A stretch of 59,971 bases of DNA. Source: a virus. This document shows, one piece after another, positions 3,870 to 59,466 of the stretch. Made by a program: the position numbers and the translations under genes. The DNA is taken from IMG/VR virus record IMGVR_UViG_3300048556_000258, positions 1 through 59,971 of that record; one strand, written 5' to 3'. Positions within the stretch are counted from its first letter, which is position 1, and every line of letters starts with the position of its first letter. The notes beneath the pieces were generated by a model that did not search any database, had not been told where the DNA came from, and was given only the letters and a program-made list of their open reading frames with translations.

Positions 3870-4009
3870 TCACCGTACTCCTCGGGACAACAATCCTCAC
3901 AAAATGTTTGATCATTATAAAAGAAAGCTACTTCGGCACAGGTCTTAGCCCCACAGTTTTCACATTCACGATCATAAACATAAGCCTCTTCGCAGCTAGA
4001 CCTACTCAT
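3866..4009 (-). CDS. tiny Cys-rich zinc-finger protein, 47 aa
   Basis: A 47-residue protein with two CxxC knuckles, C16-E-N-C19 and C37-E-D-C40, plus C24 and C41. It resembles a free-standing zinc ribbon. The ATG at 4009 follows GGGGGACTATT. The stop overlaps the next start (ATGA), and the start lies within the preceding gene. Small zinc ribbons of this type are common in phage early regions; the target is unknown. Confidence 0.65.
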   Translation of the reverse strand: MSRSSCEEAYVYDRECENCGAKTCAEVAFFYNDQTFCEDCCPEEYGE

Positions 4010-4247
4010 AATAGTCCCCCGGATTTATCTCAAACTCATGTCTTATTTTCCACATAGCAGTATTCATATCCCGTATGTCAGATAAATAAATATCTTCCAT
4101 ATCTTGAATATTTCCTAGAACAGTTACTAAAGATTGATGAGCTAAGTTAAGAGCTTCTTTTTGTTCAGAAGACAAAGCCTTCAAGCCTTTTTTTCTATTA
4201 GTTTTAATCTTCTTTTGTTTTAATTGCCATTCTGTTTGTGTAGTCAT
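4002..4247 (-). CDS. hypothetical protein, 81 aa, head of the small-ORF operon
   Basis: An 81-residue basic-then-acidic helical protein. The ATG at 4247 (MTTQTEWQ) is chosen because GGAGG precedes it; a TTG four codons earlier overlaps that site. It follows a promoter with a consensus TTGACA box at 4303-4308 and is therefore probably the first gene of the coupled run down to 1866. No family recognised. Confidence 0.65.
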   Translation of the reverse strand: MTTQTEWQLKQKKIKTNRKKGLKALSSEQKEALNLAHQSLVTVLGNIQDMEDIYLSDIRDMNTAMWKIRHEFEINPGDYYE

Positions 4248-4279
4248 TTTGACCTCCAAGTCATTTGTTGTTTTTATAA

Positions 4280-4308
4280 GATGTAAGATTTATCGCATAT
4301 CCTGTCAA
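4280..4308 (-). promoter_or_regulatory. sigma70-like promoter with inverted TCGCATA motif in the spacer
   Basis: On the minus strand TTGACA (4303-4308), a 17-base spacer and TACATC (4280-4285). The motif TATCGCATA lies at 4291-4299 on the plus strand, so it reads TATGCGATA within the spacer. The promoter at 58690-58718 has the same geometry: three bases, then TATGCGA, then AAATCT before the -10. The motif is likely an operator for a shared regulator. Confidence 0.6.
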
Positions 4309-5849: not shown

Positions 5850-6074
5850 ATGATAAATTTACCAAACAGACGACCGTGCATTACCACGGACGTGGGAGAA
5901 GGTTTAGCTGTAACCGTCTCTTTTCATCCAGAAACAGCTATTCCAATAGAAGTTTTTTTATCCGGTAGAGGTAAAAAAGCATCTGATGGACCTATGACAG
6001 ATGCTTTGTATAACATGGGTGTAGAAGCGTCTAAATTAATGCAAAATAAAGATACTCAGGTCGCAGCTGAATGA
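5850..6074 (+). CDS. small TSCPD-like protein
   Basis: A 74-residue protein, one of two plus-strand genes. The ATG at 5850 is preferred over one at 5823 because AGAGGAGAAATAT precedes it. The pattern I-P-I-E-V-F-L-S-G-R-G-K, then a helix ending S-K-L-M-Q, resembles the TSCPD domain found at the C-terminus of some ribonucleotide reductases and as free small phage proteins. If so it could modulate nucleotide metabolism, but no reductase gene is present here. Its 3' end overlaps the convergent regulator gene by 19 bases. Confidence 0.6.
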   Translation: MINLPNRRPCITTDVGEGLAVTVSFHPETAIPIEVFLSGRGKKASDGPMTDALYNMGVEASKLMQNKDTQVAAE

Positions 6075-6265
6075 TCTTTGGCTTTTCTTAAAGTCATTTC
6101 GGCATCTACGAGCTCTTTTACTCTCTTTTGTTCCTCGGAAACATATTGAGAGTAAATGAATCGTAGTTGTCCACCTAAAGTTCGACCTTCTTTGGCAGCA
6201 GTTTTCTTAATTTCTAAGTAAACGTCTTTAGGAACTAAGATGCTTTTCCATTTTTCGGTATCCAT
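6056..6265 (-). CDS. ribbon-helix-helix DNA-binding regulator
   Basis: A 69-residue protein with the ribbon-helix-helix outline: strand W-K-S-I-L-V-P (6-12), helix KDVYLEIKKTAAKEG (13-27), turn R-T-L-G-G, helix QLRFIYSQYVSEE (33-45), then a charged tail. Such proteins bind DNA as dimers through the strand. The ATG at 6265 (MDTEKW) is used; the longer frame upstream runs through a clear promoter at 6293-6322. A TCGCATA-type site overlaps the -10 box and another covers the start codon, which suggests autoregulation. The ribosome-binding site AAGGA also serves an out-of-frame 13-codon ORF. Confidence 0.7.
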   Translation of the reverse strand: MDTEKWKSILVPKDVYLEIKKTAAKEGRTLGGQLRFIYSQYVSEEQKRVKELVDAEMTLRKAKDHSAAT

Positions 6266-6273
6266 ATCGCATA
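6265..6273. promoter_or_regulatory. TATCGCATA operator-like site over the regulator start codon
   Basis: TATCGCATA on the plus strand overlaps the start codon of the ribbon-helix-helix gene. A second copy (TATGCGAGA, 6297-6305) overlaps its promoter. Two copies around one regulator gene fit an autoregulatory operator pair. Confidence 0.4.
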
Positions 6274-6292
6274 AATCCTTCTGTTTTACGGG

Positions 6293-6322
6293 ATTATATG
6301 CGAGAATATATAATTTAGTCAA
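6293..6322 (-). promoter_or_regulatory. strong sigma70-type promoter of the regulator gene
   Basis: On the minus strand TTGACT (6317-6322), 18 bases and a perfect TATAAT (6293-6298). The bases before the -10 read TCTCGCA, the same TCGCATA motif as at other promoters. This placement overrules the longer annotated frame that would start at TTG 6322. Confidence 0.75.
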
Positions 6323-8499: not shown

Positions 8500-10007
8500 A
8501 TCGCGTAGCTCCTGTTACTATCTTCTGGTTCTACAATAAATAAACTGTCTTTAGCCCGTGTGACGGCAACATAGAACACTCTGTGTAAATCATCATTGCC
8601 TCCGCTCATAGCATTGTCAGCTGAGGTAGACAAATCTGTAAACACAACTACGTTTTCTGATTCTCCCCCTTTAGAACCGTGGATCGTGGACAATGTAATA
8701 CGAGGCTCTGCATTAAATTTTTCTCCCCTTCTAAGCATAGCTGTAATATATGCCCTTGATTCTTCAGGTAGTCTATCAAGAGCGTCTCTCCAAATCAACT
8801 CTTCCCCTACCATAAGTCCCCATTCTTTTTGCAACTCAGCCATGTCAAAGAGATTGTTGTCATCTGCTCCACTCATTGTCTTGAAGCCTCGCTTGATACG
8901 CTTACCTGTTGACATAAAACTGTAAATATCTTTGACGGTTTCTAAAGTGATGCTTTTACCTTTGCGCATCTGCTCCCAACCGTTCACAGCTGAGGATATC
9001 TTTGCGGAGATAGATCGATGGCCTTTATAATTGAACAGGTATCCAGAAGACCTGAGCATCGTAACAACGGGAATTAGTATGTAACCCGCCTGAGCTAGTA
9101 TAAGCCACTGTCCTTCTGAAACATCTAGATCTTCTACCCGGCTTATGTATTGTACACTACCTTCTTCTTTTTTAGGGTTGTATTTTTTTGGATAACGATC
9201 GCTTATTCTGGATACGATTGTCTCAGCGATACGATGTATACGCCGTGGGACACGGTATGATTGCGATAATGTCTCACTAGATCCATCAAGAGTAATGAAT
9301 TGTTCTACATCAGCACCGGCCCATCTATAAATAGCTTGGTCATCGTCGCCAGCTGCATACATTTTTTTAGCATTCCTATCAAGTATGTGAGCTATATCCC
9401 ATTGTAAGGGACTTAGGTCTTGAGCTTCATCAAGAAACACCAGATCAAACTTGGGGCAAGCCATATCAGCTTCGTCAATAAAACATTGTAACATGTCTGT
9501 AAAATCGTAGAGCTCGTAATGTTTTTTATATTGTTTGTAACACTTGTCTACATAATTAACAGTGTTCCACTCAAACTCTATTGAAGATTGGTTGTATTGT
9601 TTTCTCAAAGATGTTTTACATAGTCGAGCTAAATTTATTAGACTAAGGATAGGGTGATCGGTTGCTTGTTTGTCTACGATATCATCATTAAGAGATGTTT
9701 TTGAGACTAAAGGTATAGAGATAATATCACTCAACTCCTTGTAATGTTCTTTACTCATAACTTGTTCGGACCTTATACCACTAGCATTCAAGGCCAAGCT
9801 GTGTAGGGTACGGAAATAAAACAAATCTTTTTCTGGATCTAAATGGAAACGAGCTGAAGCACGTTCTTTTGCTTCGTTAGCTGCTTTACGCGTAAAAGCA
9901 AGAAAAGCAATGCTATTAGGCGTGACGCCACTCTCAAGAGCCTTATCTAACATGTTAAGCAATGTGGTGGTTTTACCCGTCCCAGGTGGTCCAAAAATCC
10001 TAAACAT
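8496..10007 (-). CDS. UvrD/Rep-type superfamily 1 DNA helicase
   Basis: A 503-residue SF1A helicase, compact for the family. Motifs in order: Walker A G6-P-P-G-T-G-K-T13, Ia A-F-T-R-K-A-A-N-E-A, II D-E-A-Q-D-L-S, III G-D-D-D-Q-A-I-Y-R-W-A-G-A, IV Q-S-Y-R-V-P-R, V T-I-H-G-S-K-G-G-E, VI Y-V-A-V-T-R-A-K. It should translocate 3' to 5' on ssDNA. Since no DnaB-like helicase is seen, it may serve as the replicative or a recombination helicase. Coupled to both neighbours by short overlaps. Confidence 0.92.
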   Translation of the reverse strand: MFRIFGPPGTGKTTTLLNMLDKALESGVTPNSIAFLAFTRKAANEAKERASARFHLDPEKDLFYFRTLHSLALNASGIRSEQVMSKEHYKELSDIISIPLVSKTSLNDDIVDKQATDHPILSLINLARLCKTSLRKQYNQSSIEFEWNTVNYVDKCYKQYKKHYELYDFTDMLQCFIDEADMACPKFDLVFLDEAQDLSPLQWDIAHILDRNAKKMYAAGDDDQAIYRWAGADVEQFITLDGSSETLSQSYRVPRRIHRIAETIVSRISDRYPKKYNPKKEEGSVQYISRVEDLDVSEGQWLILAQAGYILIPVVTMLRSSGYLFNYKGHRSISAKISSAVNGWEQMRKGKSITLETVKDIYSFMSTGKRIKRGFKTMSGADDNNLFDMAELQKEWGLMVGEELIWRDALDRLPEESRAYITAMLRRGEKFNAEPRITLSTIHGSKGGESENVVVFTDLSTSADNAMSGGNDDLHRVFYVAVTRAKDSLFIVEPEDSNRSYAI

Positions 10008-10291
10008 CAGTGAGCCGTATCTGTTCCTATGGTCTCATGCCAATCGACTATTGGATATACAAAAATAGGTGTTCCATCCCCCAGCCATGCTCCAACTACA
10101 TTGAAGTCCATCCATTCGACAGCTTCATCGTAAGTCCAGCCCTCTCTTTCCATAAATATCGCACAACATTTCTCATAGTCGTAAACAAGAATGTCGTTTT
10201 GACCACAACGTGATCCAACCCCTATAATAGCCTCATCTAAACCATCGGCTTTTAACATAGGCACGTCTTCCATTATGGGTTTATCTGTCAT
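10007..10291 (-). CDS. conserved phage protein of unknown function
   Basis: A 94-residue acidic protein. The segment E-W-M-D-F-N-V-V-G-A-W-L-G-D-G-T-P-I-F is a pattern I associate with small phage proteins near replication genes. No catalytic role is known to me. The start overlaps the primase stop (TAATG), and its own stop overlaps the helicase start, so it is an integral part of the replication operon. Confidence 0.75.
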   Translation of the reverse strand: MTDKPIMEDVPMLKADGLDEAIIGVGSRCGQNDILVYDYEKCCAIFMEREGWTYDEAVEWMDFNVVGAWLGDGTPIFVYPIVDWHETIGTDTAH

Positions 10292-13221: not shown

Positions 13222-13331
13222 ATTTTTCCTTTCGTGTTTGTTGTTTCGTGTTTAAAGACTTTTTTATAGCCTTGCATTAATATAATAAATCGCATATTGT
13301 AATATAGATGTCAAGCACGGAGATAAAAAAA
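13222..13331. promoter_or_regulatory. divergent promoter region with TCGCATA motif
   Basis: This gap separates the minus-strand replication operon from the plus-strand SNF2 gene. On the plus strand TTGCAT (13272-13277), a 17-base spacer ending TCGCA, and TATTGT (13295-13300) match the promoter type at 695 and 6293. On the minus strand TTGACA (13309-13314) is present, but no good -10 box was found at normal spacing. Confidence 0.5.
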
Positions 13332-14777
13332 ATGTATAAATTTAAAACAAAACCTTTTAAGCATCAAGAAGATGTCTTGAATGATAGTTGGGACAGGCCT
13401 TATTATGGTTTGTTTATGGAGATGGGCTTAGGTAAGTCTAAAGTAGCTATAGATACTGTAGGTAAATTAAAATCTAAAGGAGAAATTGATTCGGTAATGA
13501 TCGTAGCTCCAAAAGGTGTATATGACAACTGGGTCAAACAAGAGATACCGAATCACTTACCGGATGAGTTTGAAAGATTCGTGGTTCGTTGGCAACCTAG
13601 CAGTACCAAAGCTTTTCAAGACACGATGCAAAAGTTAGTATTTGAAACTATGCCGGGCATAAAGTTTTTTGTGGTTAATGTTGAGGCCTTCAGCTCAGAT
13701 CGAGGTAAGAAAGCAGCTTATTATTTTTTAAAGAAAAACCCTGACAATATGGTGATTGTAGATGAGAGCACCACAATAAAAAATCGTAAAGCATCTCGTA
13801 CTAAGAATATATTGCAGCTGTCAAAACATGCTAAGTACAAAAGAATATTGACAGGATCTCCGGTTACAAAAAGTCCAATGGATTTGTACTCTCAGTGTGC
13901 CTTCTTAGATACTATGGCACTAGATCAGGCTAGTTATTTTGCTTTCCAAAACAGATATGCAATCGTACAAAAAAGACATATGGGTCCACGAAGCTTCAAT
14001 GAAATTACTGGTTATAGACGTCTGGACGAGCTCAATGATAAGCTCAACAGGTTTAGTGTAAGAACTTTAAAAGAAGATTGCCTGGACTTACCTGAAAAGA
14101 TTTATGTCAAGCGTAATGTGCCGTTGACCGCGGAACAAAAGAAACTGTACGAGCAGATGAAAAAGTATGCTTTGGCTCAGTTAGACGAGGGCCAGCTTGC
14201 GACTACAGCTAGTGTGCTTACACAAATTATGAGACTGCAACAGATATGTTGTGGTTATTTGGTTAGTGATGAGGGTAAGATGCAAGTATTGGATAACAAT
14301 AGATTAACTGAGCTGTTGGCCGCGGTTGAAGAGTGTTCCGGTAAAATAATTATTTGGTGTAACTACACTCATGACATTCAGGAAATAGAAAAAACTCTGG
14401 CTTCTAAGTATGGCCGTGATTCGGTGGCAACGTACTATGGTGAAACTAAACAGGAAGACAGGCAAGAGACCGTAAACAAATTTCAAGATGTCAATAGTCC
14501 GTTGAGATTTTTTATAGGTCAGCCCAAGACAGGTGGGTATGGCATTACGCTTACAGCTGCTAACACCATGATCTATTATAGTAACAGTTATGATCTTGAA
14601 ATTAGATTACAGTCGGAAGATCGAGCTCACAGAATAGGTCAAAAGAATGCCGTAACATATATAGACTTGATTGTAGAAGACACTATAGATGAAAAAATTG
14701 TCAGGTCTTTACGAGAAAAGATTGATTTAGCTGGTCAGGTTTTAGGTGAAGATCAAAAAAGATGGTTACTTAATTAA
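13332..14777 (+). CDS. SNF2-family DNA-dependent ATPase (superfamily 2)
   Basis: A 481-residue SF2 ATPase, the main plus-strand gene. The ATG at 13332 is chosen over 13308 because GGAGA stands nine bases before it. Motifs: Q-like F-K-H-Q, Walker A M-G-L-G-K-S-K, II V-D-E-S-T, III L-T-G-S-P, and VI with Q-S-E-D-R-A-H-R-I-G-Q. The closing R-A-H-R-I-G-Q is diagnostic for SNF2-like enzymes, which move along or remodel protein-DNA complexes. It has no extra domains. It converges on the endolysin gene with a 12-base overlap. Confidence 0.92.
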   Translation: MYKFKTKPFKHQEDVLNDSWDRPYYGLFMEMGLGKSKVAIDTVGKLKSKGEIDSVMIVAPKGVYDNWVKQEIPNHLPDEFERFVVRWQPSSTKAFQDTMQKLVFETMPGIKFFVVNVEAFSSDRGKKAAYYFLKKNPDNMVIVDESTTIKNRKASRTKNILQLSKHAKYKRILTGSPVTKSPMDLYSQCAFLDTMALDQASYFAFQNRYAIVQKRHMGPRSFNEITGYRRLDELNDKLNRFSVRTLKEDCLDLPEKIYVKRNVPLTAEQKKLYEQMKKYALAQLDEGQLATTASVLTQIMRLQQICCGYLVSDEGKMQVLDNNRLTELLAAVEECSGKIIIWCNYTHDIQEIEKTLASKYGRDSVATYYGETKQEDRQETVNKFQDVNSPLRFFIGQPKTGGYGITLTAANTMIYYSNSYDLEIRLQSEDRAHRIGQKNAVTYIDLIVEDTIDEKIVRSLREKIDLAGQVLGEDQKRWLLN

Positions 14778-33197: not shown

Positions 33198-36100
33198 TTA
33201 TTCTCCTTCTAAGGTTGCTACTTTGGCTTCTAATGTTTCAATTCTTTCCATTGCTTCTTGTAGTGCTTTGACTGCTTTCATGTAGAGTATTGAATATTTG
33301 ACTTTCTTAGTTGTTGTTCCTAAATCTTTATTTTTTCTATCTCGGTCTGTAGTATTTTTTACAAGTCCATACATTCCTGCTGTTTCAACTTCTTGAGCAA
33401 TTACTCCTAATCTCCAATGAGAATCAGAGTCACCAGTTGCAACATCTGTTTTAAATTTAAAGTTACGAACTTTTAAGGCTTTTATGTCTTCCCATTGTGA
33501 TGAAGCATCTTTTATCTGTTCTTTAAGTTTTTCATCAGAAAACCCAGTATAGCTATTATTTTGATTTTCAATATCTCCATTACTCCAAATTAATATTCTG
33601 TTAGTAGTGGAATCAAAACAATTTAAAAAATAACTAGACTCGTTATTAGGAGTTGCTGCAGAAAAATCCATAAGCAATCCATAAGGTGCTGAAGCATGGC
33701 TGTTTTCTATAAATGCAGTTATATCCCCAAGGTCTTGATGAAGAACATGAGATGTTGAACCTGTCATAGTTCTAGTTGAATCACTAATGTCAGGTGACAT
33801 GTTACTATACCCAGTATTACTAATATAGAATCTTGGATTACCATCACCATCTGATAAAATAATTCTATTGCTTGATGTTCTTATGTCTAATCCATATTGA
33901 TTGCCGTTGTAACGACCTAAGATGGAGTTGCTTCCACCAGTACTTACTGTTGCTCCAGAATCATTTCCAACAAAAGTGTTATACCCACCAGTTTCTGTTA
34001 ATTGCCCAGCATCCTTACCAATTAAGGTGTTGTGAGTTCCTGTTGTTAGCGTTGTTCCAGAATTATGTCCAACTGCTGTGTTCTGAGAACCTGTAGTATT
34101 AGAATCTAAAGCTCTATAACCTACACCTGTATTTCCTGTACCAGTGGTATTAAGCTCCATTACTTGATAGCCAACACCTGTGTTATCAGATGCTATGTTG
34201 CTTAATAAAGTTTTAGTGCCTATCGCAGTATTTTGACCACCTGTAGTATTTGCACCTAAAGCTCCATAACCAACGGCTACATTTAATCCACCAGTAGTAT
34301 TTGCATCAAGGGCTTCACCACCTACTGCTGTATTAAGAGTACCTGTATTGTTAAGTAGTGCGTTATACCCCACAGCTGTGTTATTAGATGCTGTAGTGTT
34401 TAAATTTAATGCACCTCTTCCAACAGCAGTATTATTACTGCCAGTGGTGTTTGAAACCATAGAATAACCAACCGCAGTATTGTCATCACCAGTTGAATTT
34501 GCTTTTAGTGCTTGCCTACCCAATGCTGTATTGATTGTACCTGTTGTATTGTTTTGCAAGGACTCAAAACCAACTGCTGTGTTGTTAGATGCTGTAGTGT
34601 TTGCTTTTAGTGCATCTTTTCCTAAAGCAACATTATTTGAACCAGTTGTATTGTAAAAAAGTGCTTGATGACCTGCCACCACATTGTCAGCACCAGTAGT
34701 ATTTGTATAAAAAGAATAAGTGCCTAAAGTAGTGTTGTTACCTCCAGTTGTAGTGCTGTAGGCTGACGCAAAACCCACTGCTGTATTGTTATCTACTGTG
34801 GTAAGTGAATATAATGCTGTTGCACCTAATGCTGTCGTACTTGAAGCTGTAGTAGCTGTATTCATTGCTTGAGTTCCAACTGCCACACCATTATTTGCTG
34901 TCGTACTTGCTTTAGCAGAATCTTTACCGATTGCTGTAAGATTAGTTCCTGTAGTGTTTGCAGTTAATGCTAGATAGCCCACTGCTGTATTGTTACTTGC
35001 TGTGGTTATAGAATCACCTGCTAGACCACCTATTAATGTATTTCCAGTTCCTGTTGTTATTACTTCACCTGCACCATATCCAACTGCTGTATTATAAGAA
35101 TTTGTGGCAGAAGTGAAGTTTTGTGAAGCTAAAGCATTAAATCCAATAGCAACAGTTCTGCTACCTTGAGTATCAGTGGTTAAGGCTTGAAAACCAAGTA
35201 CTGTATTTCTATCTGCATCAGTTAAAGCATCCCCCGAAAGACCACCTATTAGAGTGTTTTGAGTTCCTGTTGTTACTGATTTACCTGTATTATGCCCAAC
35301 TGCCGTATTATAAGCATCTGTTGCTCCAGAAAAACTTTGTGATTGTAAGGCTTTTGAGCCAATAGCAATACTGTTATTTCCTTTTACATCTGCACTTAAA
35401 GCATTGTATCCAAGAGCCACATTTTCTGCACCAGTAGTATTTGCAGTTAGTGCATTAGTTCCCACTGCTGTATTTAAAGTACCAGTAGTGTTTGCCTTTA
35501 AAGCACGATAACCAACTGCTGTGTTGTTACTTGCAGTAGTGTTTGCATTTAAAGCACCACCACCTACTGCTACGTTATTTGTGCCTGTCGTATTATTACC
35601 TAAAGTTGCGGCGGCTGAAGCATCAATGCCACCCACACCTGTATTATCAACACCTGTTGTATTGCCGTTTAAAACAGAACGACCAATAGCAGTTATACGA
35701 GTTCCAGAAGTGTTAGCATATCCTGCTTGATACCCCACTGCTGTGTTGTTATCTCCTGTAGTATTTGTAAATAGTGCATCCTTACCAACGGCTGTGTTAT
35801 TAGAAGCTGTAGTATTATTAGCCAAAGCTCTGCGACCAAGAGCAGTATTAGTTGCTCCTGTTGTATTGTCTTGTAAAGCATTATGCCCAAGTGCTGTATT
35901 GTCAGAAGCTGTGGTGTTAGATGAAAGAGCATAACTACCAACAGCTACATTAACATCACCTGTAGTATTTGCAGTTAGTGTATTATACCCCACGGCTGTG
36001 TTGGCAGAAGCTGTGGTGTTTGAAACTAAGGCATCACGACCTATTGCTATGTTGTTAGAGCCAGTTGTATTTACTAGACCCGCTTCTTTTCCCATAAATA

Positions 36101-36767
36101 CATTGTCTGCACCTGTAGTATTGGCTTCACCTGCTCTATGACCAACTGTTGTGTTGCCTGAACCTGAAGTATTTGCACTCAAAGAACCAGACCCTATTGC
36201 AGTATTGTTGCCACCACTTAAAGACCCATCATCTAATGCAGTATTACCCAAAGCTACGTTATTTGTGCCAGTTGGATAATTACCATCTAGCTTGATTGTG
36301 CCACCATCTACTGAGAGGTTACCTGCTATGTCTACTGCACCATCTATGTCTACAGCATCAAGATTAGTTGTTCCATCAACGTCTATGTCTCCTGATATAT
36401 CTAATGAAGTACCCGTTAAAACACCTGTAACAGCAAGTGTACCCGCCATTGTGACGTTACCATCAAACGTGCCACCATCTGCCTTGCTTACTGTATCGGC
36501 TACAGAAAATACATCATAAACAATAACCTCAACAATATCGTTTACTGGCAATCCTGGGTCAAAAACAATAGATGTACCACTAGTGGCAGTGTAATCTGCA
36601 TCACCTAGCTTTACACCATTTACATACACATCAACGTAGTTGCTATCTCTGTAGCTTAAAGAAACGCCCTCGGCTCCCGCTCCACTGAATGTTGTCTGTG
36701 AAGCAGTAGCAGTATAGGTATGTTTTTGTCTAACTCCGTTGGAAGGAGATACTCCTATGTATGCCAT
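33198..36767 (-). CDS. giant repeat fibre, YadA-like beta-roll with S74 chaperone
   Basis: A 1189-residue tail fibre. Residues 1-160 form an attachment region. Residues about 169-955 hold roughly 45 repeats of about 17 residues with consensus N-T-A-V-G-x-x-A-L-x-x-N-T-T-G-x-x, the left-handed beta-roll repeat of YadA-type adhesin heads. The C-terminus is a Peptidase_S74 intramolecular chaperone: F-S-D-E-K-L-K with the Ser and Lys of the self-cleavage dyad, then W-R-L-G-V-I-A-Q-E-V and a closing coiled coil. It should trimerise, then shed the chaperone. Confidence 0.85.
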   Translation of the reverse strand: MAYIGVSPSNGVRQKHTYTATASQTTFSGAGAEGVSLSYRDSNYVDVYVNGVKLGDADYTATSGTSIVFDPGLPVNDIVEVIVYDVFSVADTVSKADGGTFDGNVTMAGTLAVTGVLTGTSLDISGDIDVDGTTNLDAVDIDGAVDIAGNLSVDGGTIKLDGNYPTGTNNVALGNTALDDGSLSGGNNTAIGSGSLSANTSGSGNTTVGHRAGEANTTGADNVFMGKEAGLVNTTGSNNIAIGRDALVSNTTASANTAVGYNTLTANTTGDVNVAVGSYALSSNTTASDNTALGHNALQDNTTGATNTALGRRALANNTTASNNTAVGKDALFTNTTGDNNTAVGYQAGYANTSGTRITAIGRSVLNGNTTGVDNTGVGGIDASAAATLGNNTTGTNNVAVGGGALNANTTASNNTAVGYRALKANTTGTLNTAVGTNALTANTTGAENVALGYNALSADVKGNNSIAIGSKALQSQSFSGATDAYNTAVGHNTGKSVTTGTQNTLIGGLSGDALTDADRNTVLGFQALTTDTQGSRTVAIGFNALASQNFTSATNSYNTAVGYGAGEVITTGTGNTLIGGLAGDSITTASNNTAVGYLALTANTTGTNLTAIGKDSAKASTTANNGVAVGTQAMNTATTASSTTALGATALYSLTTVDNNTAVGFASAYSTTTGGNNTTLGTYSFYTNTTGADNVVAGHQALFYNTTGSNNVALGKDALKANTTASNNTAVGFESLQNNTTGTINTALGRQALKANSTGDDNTAVGYSMVSNTTGSNNTAVGRGALNLNTTASNNTAVGYNALLNNTGTLNTAVGGEALDANTTGGLNVAVGYGALGANTTGGQNTAIGTKTLLSNIASDNTGVGYQVMELNTTGTGNTGVGYRALDSNTTGSQNTAVGHNSGTTLTTGTHNTLIGKDAGQLTETGGYNTFVGNDSGATVSTGGSNSILGRYNGNQYGLDIRTSSNRIILSDGDGNPRFYISNTGYSNMSPDISDSTRTMTGSTSHVLHQDLGDITAFIENSHASAPYGLLMDFSAATPNNESSYFLNCFDSTTNRILIWSNGDIENQNNSYTGFSDEKLKEQIKDASSQWEDIKALKVRNFKFKTDVATGDSDSHWRLGVIAQEVETAGMYGLVKNTTDRDRKNKDLGTTTKKVKYSILYMKAVKALQEAMERIETLEAKVATLEGE
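33900..36263 (-). repeat. about 45 tandem 51-bp-class repeats inside the fibre gene
   Basis: The DNA encodes N-T-A-V-G-type units of mostly 17 codons. Some units are longer (inserts such as S-Q-S-F-S-G-A-T-D-A-Y and S-Q-N-F-T-S-A-T-N-S-Y) and one is shorter. Units differ in sequence but repeat many identical 12-18-base blocks, so the array is prone to expansion and contraction. Confidence 0.85.
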
Positions 36768-41206: not shown

Positions 41207-41710
41207 TTAAGCACTCACCGTGGTTGGACCTGCTGTAGCTCGACTTCCTCCGCCTACAATACCACCTATTGTAGCGGTTTCTCCATTAGCTGTAAATGTA
41301 TAACTATCTGTAGTAACAACCGTAATCGTATAACCAGAATCTTGTTCTAAAACAGCTTTGGTAAAACCATCAAAACCATATACATTTCTAAACCTCACTG
41401 TATCACCTGTAGTTCTCCCATGACCAAACTCTCTTACAGTTATAACACTTGAGCCAGATGAGCTTGATATAAACGGGTTTAAAGGTAATAAGACTTCTAT
41501 AGGATTTTCTGTACGACTTGGTCTAGCATCTCGTAAAGCTTCGGGGTCTGCTACAGTTCTAAAAGGACCTAATTGAGGGTGTTTAGCCTCAAATTCATCC
41601 GGACCTACTAACGAACCATTCCACTCTTTTTTTAAATCACGATATTTATATCGCATACCGGATCTATCTGATATGCCATATGCGTGTTTTCCTGTAGCGA
41701 ACCTAGCCAT
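41207..41710 (-). CDS. connector-region structural protein
   Basis: A 167-residue protein. The first 75 residues are charged (K-Y-R-D-L-K-K-E-W-N-G, P-D-E-F-E-x-K-H-P-Q). The second half is a small beta domain with G-D-T-V-R-F-R-N and Y-T-F-T-A-N-G. It lies between two connector genes and overlaps the next start by one base. The role is inferred from position. Confidence 0.6.
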   Translation of the reverse strand: MARFATGKHAYGISDRSGMRYKYRDLKKEWNGSLVGPDEFEAKHPQLGPFRTVADPEALRDARPSRTENPIEVLLPLNPFISSSSGSSVITVREFGHGRTTGDTVRFRNVYGFDGFTKAVLEQDSGYTITVVTTDSYTFTANGETATIGGIVGGGSRATAGPTTVSA

Positions 41711-47796: not shown

Positions 47797-47994
47797 TTAA
47801 ACTTCCTCTTGTTCTTGCTTCTCTAAAAGATTTTTTATTTCACTCTCTAAAAAATCTAAAGACTTTAACTCTCCCATGAGACCCTTGTAATGTATCATGT
47901 CTTTTACATTATCAAATTCTAATGTCTCACGAATAAGTTCTCTTCTTTCTTTTATAAGCCTAAATACAGCTTGTGCAAGATAAATCTCATTCAT
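47797..47994 (-). CDS. small helical protein, first gene of the capsid operon
   Basis: A 65-residue helical, charged protein (F-R-L-I-K-E-R-R-E-L-I-R-E-T-L and E-S-E-I-K-N-L-L-E-K-Q). It ends one base before the co-chaperonin start and follows the TTGACA promoter at 48032-48060. No family recognised. Perhaps a head accessory factor. Confidence 0.6.
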   Translation of the reverse strand: MNEIYLAQAVFRLIKERRELIRETLEFDNVKDMIHYKGLMGELKSLDFLESEIKNLLEKQEQEEV

Positions 47995-48031
47995 TTCTAT
48001 AAAAACCTAATATTTTCTTATTCTGTCGTAT

Positions 48032-48060
48032 ATAATCTTATATATTGCAGCAAATGTCAA
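48032..48060 (-). promoter_or_regulatory. promoter of the capsid operon
   Basis: On the minus strand a consensus TTGACA (48055-48060) is followed after 17 bases by GATTAT (48032-48037); ATTATA one base further is an alternative. It lies in a gene-free stretch upstream of 47994 and would drive the co-chaperonin, scaffold and capsid genes. Confidence 0.55.
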
Positions 48061-54349: not shown

Positions 54350-55804
54350 TCAATAATAAGCCCTTACTTGAGCTGACCCGTCGCCTTCTTCCCAATCATC
54401 GCTTGGCAACTGTACAAAATTACCCTGACGATAACGCATTAAGGCTTGTGTCATGCTATCCACAAGGTCATCATACTCTCCATTTGGAAAAGCTGCAACC
54501 TCTTCTATCATCTCGTCTGCAAAAGTTTCGTCAGGGACCCAAACCATCCCTGCCTCAAACAAAGGAGATACAGAATGTAATCTTGACACTTTATCATTAC
54601 CTTTACTCGGTGTAAAGTTAACAACAGGTATACCCATATTACGCAATTCATGCGTCAAAGGCAGACCCGTAGCCTTAGCTTCTATAATTACTGTCTCGGG
54701 GTCCCAATAATTATATTGCTCCATAGCAACATTCTTCAATTCTGGGAAATCCCACCTGTCTTTTATGCTATCTAACAATATTAAAGCAGGTTGACCCCCT
54801 ATTTCCTCCGGATAAAACACTCCCCACGTTGTTATAGCACTAAAGTCAGCCGTTTCACGCTTTGAAAACGCCGTATCGTAGCTCTGAATGACATATTGTA
54901 GGTTTGGGACACTCTTTTTCTCCCACCTCTTCCACCATTCTCGCTTAATTATCGCATTTTCTTCACCAGTAGGCTGCTGCTGGTACTGAGCATTCCATTT
55001 ACTGGGCGGAATAGACGCTTTTACCGCCGTTAAATCGTCCAAACTCCAATATTCTGGCCAACAAGGTTCCCCACTATCAAAAATAGCAGGTAATTCCACT
55101 ATCTCCCATTGATCCGCTAGGGGATCCTTTGCCATCGAGCGCACCAACTGGCCCGTCAAGTCCTTCTCTGACCATCTTGTCTGTACTAAAACTATACTTC
55201 CACCAGGCTGGAGCCTCTGTCGGGGGCCCCCTGTGTACCAATCCCAAGCATCTTCAAAACCATTGTTACTCATAGCCGTTTGTTCAGAGTGAGGATCATC
55301 TATTATAACTAAATCACCACCACGACCCGCTAAGTTTGAGCCAACACCCACCGCATAATACATACCACCCTTATTTGTATCCCATCTTCCTGACGCTTTA
55401 CTATCTACCGCCAAGCTTACATCTGGGAATACCGTCTTAAACTCATCTGTTTCAATAAGGTTCTTGACCTTTCTGCCAAAATTAACAGCGAGTTCTGTCG
55501 TGTGTGTCGCTTGAATGATCTTCATGTTCGGACTACGGCCCATCATCCACGCAGGGAACAGGAAAGATGCAAACTCAGACTTCGTGTGTCTAGGGGCCAT
55601 GTTGATTATTAATCTTTTAAGTTCCCCACGAGCAACTCTTTCTAGTTTTTCTGCAATTATTTCGTGATGTCTTCCTTGAATAAAACTCGGCCAGATACTT
55701 TTTACAAAACTTAAAAATGTATTTTGGCACTCCTCGTTCTTTTCTAACTGAGCTAGTCTTAGTTCAAGTTTGAGGATCCTTTCGTTTTGTATTCTACCAT
55801 CCAT
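54350..55804 (-). CDS. terL: terminase large subunit
   Basis: A 484-residue packaging motor. The ATPase half has a deviant Walker A, M-A-P-R-H-T-K-S (69-76), and Walker B D-L-V-I-I-D-D (164-170). The nuclease half has S-Y-D310-T-A, D320, V-I-I-E375-A-K and D-D-L-V-D449, the RNase H-like acidic set. The ATG follows AAGGGACCCCTAC. It is the first gene of a long transcript that continues through the portal and lysis genes. A TCGCATA-type promoter element lies just upstream. Confidence 0.95.
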   Translation of the reverse strand: MDGRIQNERILKLELRLAQLEKNEECQNTFLSFVKSIWPSFIQGRHHEIIAEKLERVARGELKRLIINMAPRHTKSEFASFLFPAWMMGRSPNMKIIQATHTTELAVNFGRKVKNLIETDEFKTVFPDVSLAVDSKASGRWDTNKGGMYYAVGVGSNLAGRGGDLVIIDDPHSEQTAMSNNGFEDAWDWYTGGPRQRLQPGGSIVLVQTRWSEKDLTGQLVRSMAKDPLADQWEIVELPAIFDSGEPCWPEYWSLDDLTAVKASIPPSKWNAQYQQQPTGEENAIIKREWWKRWEKKSVPNLQYVIQSYDTAFSKRETADFSAITTWGVFYPEEIGGQPALILLDSIKDRWDFPELKNVAMEQYNYWDPETVIIEAKATGLPLTHELRNMGIPVVNFTPSKGNDKVSRLHSVSPLFEAGMVWVPDETFADEMIEEVAAFPNGEYDDLVDSMTQALMRYRQGNFVQLPSDDWEEGDGSAQVRAYY

Positions 55805-55825: not shown

Positions 55826-55838
55826 TTTATATGCGATT
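55826..55838 (-). promoter_or_regulatory. terL promoter element with TCGCATA motif
   Basis: On the minus strand A-A-A-T-C-G-C-A-T-A-T-A-A-A: TATAAA (55826-55831) directly follows TCGCA, as in the promoters at 695 and 6293. No good -35 box is seen at 17-18 bases, so an activator may be needed. It is 22 bases from the terL start codon. Confidence 0.5.
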
Positions 55839-56480: not shown

Positions 56481-56954
56481 TTAGATCTCCAAAAAATGAA
56501 AGTTGAAACAATCCCAAATAATATTTTTTAATCTTTTAGATTGTGAAATTATAGAAGCTCCATCATACCAATCATTATAGTGATATTCAATTCTATTTAA
56601 TCCGTCTTTTGGATTATAAAAAATCCTAAACTCATCACTAGGACCGCCCCAAGATAATTGCCAGCGGTGAAAACTTTCTTTCTGATCTTCAAAAGTTCCC
56701 GCCTCTACATAATCAAAACAAAGCCCGTATTGATCAACAAAATCTAAAAAATTATCATACTGATTTAATTCAAGGTCTTTAATTGTTTTAAAGTATTTAG
56801 ATTTATATTTATCGTTAATACTGCAGAAAGTATTAATTTCTTTTTGATCTTCATTTAAATACATTTCAGCTATTATTAAATCATCCCAGCGATCTCTATA
56901 ATTTGGGTGCACTAAATCAATACATTTTAGCTTTCTATTTTCAGTTTTTAACAT
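56481..56954 (-). CDS. hypothetical protein, 157 aa
   Basis: A 157-residue acidic, aromatic-rich protein. The segment F-H-R-W-Q-L-S-W-G-G-P-S-D-E-F-R-I-F and then R-I-E-Y-H-Y-N-D-W-Y-D-G-A looks like a conserved domain of phage and plasmid accessory proteins, but I cannot assign a function. It has a ribosome-binding site TAGGAGATT and is preceded by a motif-bearing promoter region and a terminator. Confidence 0.7.
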   Translation of the reverse strand: MLKTENRKLKCIDLVHPNYRDRWDDLIIAEMYLNEDQKEINTFCSINDKYKSKYFKTIKDLELNQYDNFLDFVDQYGLCFDYVEAGTFEDQKESFHRWQLSWGGPSDEFRIFYNPKDGLNRIEYHYNDWYDGASIISQSKRLKNIIWDCFNFHFLEI

Positions 56955-56968
56955 GGTTTTAATCTCCT

Positions 56969-57000
56969 ATTAATTAAAGTTATCTCATAATATTGCATAC
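56969..57000 (-). promoter_or_regulatory. promoter region with degenerate TCGCATA motif
   Basis: TATTGCATA at 56991-56999 on the plus strand is a one-mismatch form of the repeated motif. It stands in the same place relative to the gene start as the copies at 57421 and 59458, about 40 bases upstream. A TTAAAGTTAT segment is shared with the region at 57411-57416. Confidence 0.4.
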
Positions 57001-57065: not shown

Positions 57066-57386
57066 TTAATCAAATACAATCACATTTAAACCCGCTTCAT
57101 TTAAATTATTTTTAAGCTTGTTAATATTTAACTGGTTTGGGTTATCTTCAAAAGCTTCCCTATTTGATTTTTTAAAGTTATTAATTTGTTCTTCATTCAA
57201 ATCATTTAAAGAGGGGTTGTCTTCTAACTCCTCTTCATAAAATTGGTTTTCATTTGTATCGTCTATTAAAGTTATTGTAGAAACAAACCCGCCAAAATAA
57301 TCCTTATGAATATCTATAATTTTTTTGAGCTCTTCATGTGATATCTTGGGGCCTTTACTTGCCACGTCTAATATAAACCTTGCCAT
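57066..57386 (-). CDS. hypothetical protein, 106 aa
   Basis: A 106-residue acidic protein. The first half is a compact alpha/beta part (I-S-H-E-E-L-K-K-I-I-D-I-H-K-D-Y-F-G-G-F), the second half is Asn/Glu/Lys-rich and perhaps flexible, ending in a hydrophobic strand (L-N-V-I-V-F-D). A ribosome-binding site TAGGAGAAAT precedes the ATG. It forms its own unit between two terminators. No family recognised. Confidence 0.65.
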   Translation of the reverse strand: MARFILDVASKGPKISHEELKKIIDIHKDYFGGFVSTITLIDDTNENQFYEEELEDNPSLNDLNEEQINNFKKSNREAFEDNPNQLNINKLKNNLNEAGLNVIVFD

Positions 57387-57420: not shown

Positions 57421-57429
57421 TATCGCATA
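57421..57429. promoter_or_regulatory. TATCGCATA motif upstream of the 106-residue gene
   Basis: An exact TATCGCATA. On the minus strand it reads GTATGCGATAAACTATATAAC, with TATAAC as a likely -10 box about 14 bases beyond TATGCGA, the same layout as at 58690-58718. The -35 region (TTGGGG) is poor. Confidence 0.5.
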
Positions 57430-57494: not shown

Positions 57495-58634
57495 TTAGGA
57501 CGCCATTGCTACCCTGTGCCAGTCGGTTTTTTTCATGTTTAAAACCTGCCCGCCTAATTTTTGCCAAAAGTCCACGTCGTCGGCTTTGGCGTTATTACCT
57601 ACCCTTGTTACTGCATTCACAAAAGTTGCCCTATTAACGGGCTTGTCATTTTCATAACCAGCTTGTCCAATAGTTTTTAACAATCCGTCTAATACGTTGC
57701 TAGTTTCTTTTTTAGATAAAGTTAAAACTTTTCCTAAATTCTCGACGGCTTCGCTCGCTTCAACATTAATTGTATCTTCAGAAGCTAACCGCATTTTTTC
57801 AAGATTTTCATCAAAAGTATCTCTACTAGCATATGAGCTGACAATATCCCTGAGTTGCAATTTTAAACTATGGTTATCAGCTTGTTTGGTTTCGTCGGTT
57901 AAAATATTCCAAGTGTCCCCGTCCCTCGCTGAGGTAATGTGAGATTTTCTTGTTATGTTTTGCGTCTGCATTCCGTTAAGGCAAGCTAACGTCCAATTAA
58001 TTCCAAAAGCTGAAATACTGCCCGCTCCCGTTTCAGAATTAGAAAGCCCTATTCCATGCGCCATAATGTCATTAACATTTGCACCAGCTCCCGTAATAAT
58101 TTCAGATTTTAAACGTATATACATTTTTTTCTGAGTAATTGCACAATTAACAATTTTCCAGCAAGCGTCCGAATCCATAAGCTGAGGTAATGCGGATTCT
58201 AATAAATCTGAGTTATCAAAAGTTTTAAACTTATCGGATAAAAAAGCTCTAGCCGTACCGCTGGGGTTCATACCTTGGTTTAAATCATCATACGTTCTGA
58301 TCATACGTTTAGAATTTTCTTTTTGCCAAATAGCATTTGTCAATAAATCGTATTCTCTAGAATATTCAGATTGTAAACGTCTAGCCGTTCTAACATCTAA
58401 CCCGTTCTTTTGGGCTATTTGATCAAAACATAAATCATTAACTTTTAAAAAGCGTGTCGGCTCCCCGCCGTTGCCCTCTATAATGATTTCGCTTTGTGGC
58501 TGGTCATCTAATTCAATAGTTCTAAACTGAAGCTCTTTAGTAGGTGCTATAAAATCTTGTTTTCTAGCATTTGTATCTTTAATTCTAATTAAAAGCTTTT
58601 CTAAAGTGTTATTTTCATTTTCGATATTATGCAT
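57495..58634 (-). CDS. DUF932 phage/plasmid-like protein
   Basis: A 379-residue DUF932 protein. Recognisable parts are A-R-A-F-L-S-D-K-F-K-T-F-D-N, M-Y-I-R-L-K-S-E-I, and G-I-G-L-S-N-S-E-T-G-A-G-S-I-S-A-F-G-I, the core of the family. DUF932 proteins occur in phages and plasmids and are usually annotated as phage/plasmid-like protein of unknown function. The start follows TAGGAGATAAAC. The unit has a terminator behind it and a motif-bearing promoter in front, so it is probably expressed alone. Confidence 0.85.
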   Translation of the reverse strand: MHNIENENNTLEKLLIRIKDTNARKQDFIAPTKELQFRTIELDDQPQSEIIIEGNGGEPTRFLKVNDLCFDQIAQKNGLDVRTARRLQSEYSREYDLLTNAIWQKENSKRMIRTYDDLNQGMNPSGTARAFLSDKFKTFDNSDLLESALPQLMDSDACWKIVNCAITQKKMYIRLKSEIITGAGANVNDIMAHGIGLSNSETGAGSISAFGINWTLACLNGMQTQNITRKSHITSARDGDTWNILTDETKQADNHSLKLQLRDIVSSYASRDTFDENLEKMRLASEDTINVEASEAVENLGKVLTLSKKETSNVLDGLLKTIGQAGYENDKPVNRATFVNAVTRVGNNAKADDVDFWQKLGGQVLNMKKTDWHRVAMAS

Positions 58635-58689: not shown

Positions 58690-58718
58690 AATATAAGATT
58701 TTTCGCATACATAGTCAA
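58690..58718 (-). promoter_or_regulatory. DUF932 promoter with inverted TCGCATA motif
   Basis: On the minus strand TTGACT (58713-58718), a 17-base spacer and TATATT (58690-58695). The spacer contains TATGCGA (58703-58709 on the other strand). It aligns base for base in layout with the promoter at 4280-4308. Confidence 0.65.
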
Positions 58719-58735: not shown

Positions 58736-59434
58736 TCAAACTTTTCCAAAATCTCCAGCTATGTGATGCCTTAAAACTGTTCCATAGGGCAATTCCTGAG
58801 CAAATTTTAAAAGCTTTATTTCGTCCCGCTCAATTTCAGATTGTTTAGCGGTTGCCTCCCAATGTAATTTAACATTGCCAGCCGTTGCATAGCACCCGCC
58901 GTCTTCAGTTTCACTACCCGCTTTTTTCTTATACGTCCCATGATCAGTAAACCCTATAGCATAATCTCTTTTAATACGACTACATAAAGGTTTTCCATTT
59001 CCACAATCTCTACAATTAGAATTATTATATTCTGCGGGACATCTAACAATTTTAAAACCATTTACAGTTTCTGATTTTCCATTTGTTTTCCAAAATGTTT
59101 CTTTAACATTTATTACGACGGGTACGAATGAATGCAATAACATATCTGCAATATTTCTTGCTGAATAATTTATAGCCGTTTTACCCGCTCTAAGTTTATG
59201 TTTCCAATATTTAGGATTAAAATGTGAATAAGTAAAACTTATCCCGCCTTTTGGTACGGCGTCCGATACTGCATCTAGATAAGAATAATCTATTTCAGTT
59301 GCCCCCGCTGACGTGTCGGGCTTTAGATTACACGTTTTAGGGCAAGTTGCGAATTTATCAGCTCCTCCCGCTCTATAAGTTACTGCACAATAAGTTGTTT
59401 TTTTTGCAGTAGAATTTTTGACTAATTTAATCAT
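58736..59434 (-). CDS. Cys-rich hypothetical protein, 232 aa
   Basis: A 232-residue protein. The N-terminal part has A-T-C-P-K-T-C-N-L, the middle carries S-F-T-Y-S-H-F-N-P, and then comes C-P-A-E-Y-N-N-S-N-C-R-D-C-G-N-G-K-P-L-C, a likely metal site, followed by Y-A-I-G-F-T-D-H-G-T. The end is H-H-I-A-G-D-F-G-K-V. It looks like a conserved phage or plasmid protein, but I cannot name the family with certainty. It stands alone between a terminator with motif and the DUF932 promoter. Confidence 0.7.
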   Translation of the reverse strand: MIKLVKNSTAKKTTYCAVTYRAGGADKFATCPKTCNLKPDTSAGATEIDYSYLDAVSDAVPKGGISFTYSHFNPKYWKHKLRAGKTAINYSARNIADMLLHSFVPVVINVKETFWKTNGKSETVNGFKIVRCPAEYNNSNCRDCGNGKPLCSRIKRDYAIGFTDHGTYKKKAGSETEDGGCYATAGNVKLHWEATAKQSEIERDEIKLLKFAQELPYGTVLRHHIAGDFGKV

Positions 59435-59457: not shown

Positions 59458-59466
59458 TATCGCATA
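59458..59466. promoter_or_regulatory. TATCGCATA motif upstream of the Cys-rich gene
   Basis: An exact TATCGCATA lies 24 bases before the ATG at 59434. On the minus strand it reads GGTATGCGATAAATCACATAAT, with CATAAT as possible -10. The -35 area is unclear. Confidence 0.45.

Follow-up and report, generated by a model that had tools for sequence, protein, structure and literature searches.

Arc, a small ribbon–helix–helix (RHH) repressor of strand–helix–helix form, acts at one operator region of the temperate phage P22. In archaeal viruses, SvtR of SIRV1 (and AvtR and F55) is a virus-coded RHH protein that acts as a repressor of its own gene and also binds a small number of viral sites elsewhere, among them the promoter of a structural gene; RHH dimers oligomerize along DNA (PMC5569661). 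Two plasmid proteins appear, by analogy, closest in operator style to the locus described here. Omega (ParB) of pSM19035 binds as RHH dimers to short 7-bp repeats (WATCACW) that lie in mixed orientations over promoters; each repeat takes one dimer, and affinity is low where a repeat stands alone but high where there are two (PMC9499535). ParR of plasmid partition is an RHH protein that binds repeats of about 10 bp and also represses the promoter that it covers (PMC5016525).

The stretch of DNA analysed here (the window) is a virus record of 59,971 bp, the DNA polymerase A of which is 50–57% identical to the homologues of DSL-LC04, 023Pt_psg01, HTVC027P and HTVC023P. Directly after the polymerase gene, on the minus strand, lies an open reading frame (6056–6265) for a 69-aa protein, MDTEKWKSILVPKDVY..., the start of which was set by comparison with relatives. 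The first-pass annotation had placed this gene at 6056–6322; the gene is real, but the TTG codon at 6322 falls inside the promoter, and the N terminus of the relatives, MDTEKWKS, identifies the ATG at 6265 as the start. Residues M1–P12 are almost invariant among relatives and include the strand that is predicted to contact DNA.

On the basis of its modelled fold, the protein is predicted to belong to the RHH superfamily, nearest to CopG, Arc and AmrZ. It matches Pfam RHH_5 (E = 2.2 × 10−5, 24.5 bits) slightly below the gathering score of 26, and 17 of 17 aligned family members match the same profile at E ≤ 1. Pfam Arc, the PHROG ‘Arc-like repressor’ and AvtR (E = 0.014) profiles give weak matches, and a search of the NCBIfam library gave none. 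The AlphaFold model (pLDDT 86.7) is strand–helix–helix, with a strand at residues 9–12 and helices at 13–26 and 30–68. Foldseek matches in the PDB are mostly RHH proteins, with CopASO, CdbA, CopG–DNA, AtaR, AmrZ and Arc near the top; probabilities reach 0.97, but the best E-value is only 0.33, a weakness to be expected with 69 residues. The model and its structural neighbours strengthen the RHH fold proposed in the first-pass annotation. A tblastn search for cultured relatives returned none, and just a weak CopG match in Dulem virus 29.

The gene has a σ70-like promoter on the minus strand (6293–6322), with TTGACT at 6322–6317, an 18-bp spacer and TATAAT at 6298–6293. As had been claimed, it is the top-scoring promoter of the window: it ranks first in a whole-window scan, tied with one intragenic chance match, and is the best intergenic one. 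Site 1, TCGCATA (6303–6297, minus), runs two bases into the −10 box, and site 2, a putative second operator with the sequence TATGCGATA (6265–6273, minus), abuts the start codon, its last A being shared with the ATG. The two sites are mutually inverted and 30 bp apart. Their positions over the −10 box and the start codon, reported in the first-pass annotation, are confirmed in the sequence, and both sites are kept in 21 of 21 displayed representatives of close relatives (proteins 86–97% identical), in which neighbouring spacer bases vary. The same promoter contains an array of three units at 10-bp steps, TTATATATTC-TCGCATATAA-TCCCGTAAAA (6284–6313, minus), which spans the spacer, the −10 box and the start region in the register found in other RHH promoters.

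A profile scan of IMG/VR recovered at least 592 relatives of the RHH protein, and a DNA polymerase is present on most of the examined contigs that carry them. No close match to any of these relatives was found in 50,697 phage records, and no earlier description of the family or its operator in the open-licence literature. A core, TC[GCT][CT]ATA, lies upstream of 174 of 179 copies of the gene. Among RHH promoters that are less than 60% alike, it occurs in 56 of 61 (shuffles: mean 3.0, maximum 8), which strengthens the autorepressor layout proposed earlier, and in 52 of these 56 a TC recurs exactly 10 bp further. Distant clades have related cores of this form over the −10 box, mostly in tandem, for example, TCCCATACGT-TCGCATATAA-TCGCAGATAT (L143). 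The TCGCATA-type motif of the first-pass annotation is only one form of a wider core on a 10-bp register, and further sites had been missed, such as the tandem at 48026/48036.

The rules of site arrangement were examined in deduplicated noncoding DNA of RHH-bearing contigs, with the clade of the window left out. This DNA holds 259 cores, compared with 53 in shuffles. Direct pairs number 26 at exactly 10 bp (0.04 expected) and 3 at 20 bp; facing (inverted) pairs number 10 at 11 bp and 5 at 21 bp. Measured from the −35 element (TTGAC), site starts peak at +8–11, +16–19 and +24–31, corresponding to the spacer, the −10 box and the start region. RHH dimers stacked along one face of the helix over a promoter would be expected to give such spacing and phasing.

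Within the window, TATGCGA ranks first among 7-mers for enrichment in the intergenic DNA (22 segments), and 9 of its 10 copies are noncoding, although noncoding DNA makes up 5.6% of the sequence (binomial P about 5 × 10−11). The raw count of TCGCATA is 10 with 5.0 expected, and 3 of 100 shuffles are equally high; what departs strongly from chance is the placement of the motif, rather than its raw number. One copy, at 41651 within a gene, was treated as background. Four of the five best promoter matches in the window are intergenic, and all four have a site, placed either within the promoter or where transcription begins.

The sites mark a candidate regulon that includes replication, capsid and packaging genes. 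The divergent promoter between a helicase gene (13308–14777, plus) and a leftward replication operon (from 13221, minus) carries TCGCATA at 13290–13296 (plus), and this intergenic region also has sites in L223, L226 and L232. Upstream of a 65-aa gene (47797–47994, minus) that leads into the GroES-like/capsid operon is the tandem TCGTATATAA-TCTTATA, with its units 10 bp apart (48026–48042, plus); sites accompany this leader gene in L228 and L234 as well. In the promoter of the terminase large subunit gene (54350–55804, minus), TATGCGA (55830–55836, plus) lies just downstream of the −10 box, and the promoter of the orthologue has TCGCATA (L224:17244). Other sites precede several small genes, each of them on the minus strand: TATGCGA (699–705, plus) upstream of gene 416–658, the orthologue of which in L227 has sites at 9244/9255; TATGCGATA and ATCTTATA (4275–4299, minus) in the promoter of gene 4002–4247; TCTCATA (56983–56989, plus) upstream of gene 56481–56954; and TCGCATA (57423–57429, plus) in a promoter spacer upstream of gene 57066–57386. 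An inverted pair, TATGCGA-AAA-ATCTTATA (58692–58709, minus), sits between the −35 and −10 elements upstream of gene 57495–58634 (minus) and is conserved in front of the orthologue in L224, L227 and L233. TCGCATA (59460–59466, plus) falls in the start region of the promoter of gene 58736–59434 (minus, DUF7227), and a site is present at the orthologue in L233. Three other long genomes of the family (G019, G020 and G001) have sites at the helicase/replication region and at the 57495–58634 orthologue in three of three cases each, at the 65-aa leader gene in two and at the terminase gene in one. A fourth, G021, belongs to a clade further removed; tandem sites are present there, but the genes beside them can seldom be matched to those of the window.

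Because the same sites occur in promoters throughout the genome and in hundreds of uncultured relatives, the RHH protein is most likely an autorepressing global switch, and we consider it probable that it serves as such a regulator across a phage family, with binding and repression both deduced. The first-pass annotation had named it a likely master regulator and the best candidate to bind all copies of the motif. The comparative evidence strengthens that candidacy; the ‘master’ status is inferred from where the sites are placed. In the proposed mechanism, an RHH dimer would contact each 7-bp core through its N-terminal strand pair, lodged in the major groove, and dimers would stack cooperatively on cores one helical turn apart, head to tail at 10 bp or facing at 11 bp. 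Stacked dimers would cover promoters from −35 to about +1 and block the host σ70 RNA polymerase. The RHH gene would be repressed by the same stacking device, and about ten operators would restrain the promoters of the replication and packaging/capsid operons and of several operons of small genes, a repression that may serve to time the lytic programme.

Such a regulator would resemble SvtR, AvtR and F55 as a virus-coded RHH protein with proposed autorepression and other viral sites, but those proteins work at archaeal promoters and bind other sequences, and only the fold is related, save for the weak AvtR profile match. With Arc it shares small size, a phage origin, the strand–helix–helix form and weak profile matches, whereas sites in the window phage lie over about ten promoters rather than in one operator region. 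Omega repeats are contiguous with a 7-bp step, whereas the cores of the window phage step by 10–11 bp in units of only two or three repeats that are spread over many promoters. Omega also partitions its plasmid with ParA; no ParA or ParM was found among the subset of window proteins that was scanned. ParR differs in its centromere function and in an extra C-terminal domain that contacts the motor; most members of the phage family seen here have fewer than 90 residues, with no such domain recognized.

A different consequence of binding, in which the RHH protein mainly activates or switches promoters (for example, early off and late on) instead of simply repressing them, seems to us unlikely. 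Sites are also found at the terminase and capsid-leader promoters, which need strong late use, and other RHH regulators, such as AmrZ, can act both ways; however, the sites lie within the core promoter, between −35 and the start, at variable but helix-phased positions, with no fixed place upstream of −35.

The link between gene and motif was examined in contigs that had been picked by their DNA polymerase and not by the RHH gene: those with the gene have 161 sites in 36.6 kb of noncoding sequence, where the reversed motif gives 35, and related contigs without it have 7 in 14.7 kb, where the reversed motif gives 4. Where the DNA polymerase is at least 62% identical, nearly all sampled phages have the gene, the exceptions being a few contigs that end near the polymerase; at 58% identity or less, it is almost always absent. 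Because its presence follows the polymerase tree, the association supports a link between gene and motif without proving it, and no clean case of gene loss was found among the sampled phages, in which presence is confounded with phylogeny. Variation of the core in RHH promoters is not significantly correlated with its variation at other sites of the same phages (Spearman’s ρ = 0.38, P = 0.085), a result that does not establish coevolution of protein and site.

We give still less credence to the idea that another phage or host protein reads the motif and that the RHH gene is merely one of its targets. That the correlation of gene and motif follows the phage tree counts in favour of another reader. 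Against it, no other DNA-binding regulator emerged when a subset of the window proteins (those of the regulon and other small ones) was scanned with Pfam, the promoter of the RHH gene itself has sites in nearly all clades, and short cores repeated at one helical turn fit RHH binding.

We find it hardly credible that the motif is part of the promoter itself, as an extended −10 variant used by the host RNA polymerase or a phage-modified one. It does share bases with TATAAT in the RHH promoter, and it is rich in T and A, but it is found in spacers, −10 boxes and start regions alike, runs in either orientation and forms 10-bp repeats. Four sister phages that likewise have TTGAC-type promoters (HTVC023P, HTVC027P, psg01 and DSL-LC04) lack the exact ATCGCATA in their noncoding DNA.

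The gene that follows the RHH gene varies (53 clusters among 174 contigs) and is convergent in the clade of the window. An RHH antitoxin of a toxin–antitoxin pair was rejected, as this lack of a conserved co-transcribed neighbour means that there is no toxin partner, and PADLOC gave no match for such a reading. The convergent gene of the window (5850–6074, plus) encodes a small protein, RPCITTDVGEGLAVTVSFHP..., which has no Pfam match and which we take to recall the TSCPD domain of ribonucleotide reductases.

Profile searches detected diverged RHH-like proteins in HTVC023P (gp13), HTVC027P (gp21) and psg01 (URG13067.1), such that the four motif-free control phages are not strictly RHH-free. 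The gp21 protein of the cultured pelagiphage HTVC027P (L089:11641–11820) is a likely counterpart of the RHH regulator. It has its own conserved ATCCTATATGATTATATA promoter, and in about 20 dissimilar relatives, as in gp21 itself, a ATCCTATATGATTATATA-like sequence covers the −10/start region of the promoter. The noncoding DNA of this group shows a moderate enrichment of TCCTATA (42 copies, compared with 17 for the reversed motif), and in HTVC027P the genes gp02, gp33, gp36 and gp38 have TCCTATA promoters. HTVC023P gp13 (L086:8538–8759; MDIDKWKSV...) shares the N-terminal strand motif; it and its relatives lie inside an operon and have no promoter site of the RHH-operator kind. Pfam recognizes neither gp21 nor gp13, and the extension of the RHH design beyond the family is therefore a lead.

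The lytic phage HTVC027P lacks an RNA polymerase gene, and no known function is reported for its early genes (PMC12753301). Gene ordering in virulent phages without their own RNA polymerase is little understood beyond a few models. A large uncultured marine phage family now has a testable candidate regulator, operator rule and regulon, and the operator motif provides a DNA signature with which its promoters can be located. More speculatively, the RHH protein could be a lytic timer, a possibility that we hold only tentatively: made early, it would coat nearly all operon promoters by way of an operator code set by the helical turn, and the rise in phage DNA copy number would dilute it, releasing replication genes and then late genes, with the same design, using a diverged protein, in HTVC027P-like pelagiphages without their own RNA polymerase.

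Three further observations concern homologues and other genes of the window. An RHH homologue (46%; L098:10001–10162) occurs in a 337-kb Burkholderiales contig that is otherwise unlike the phage and has no operator-like site; it is perhaps from a prophage or a bacterial relative. The window gene at 10007–10291 is homologous to one of DSL-LC04 that is annotated as ‘RNA polymerase sigma-G factor’, a label without Pfam support. Finally, the gene at 33198–36767 encodes a 1,189-aa protein of Asn/Thr/Gly-rich repeats (NNTAVG type), which is probably a tail fibre or adhesin.
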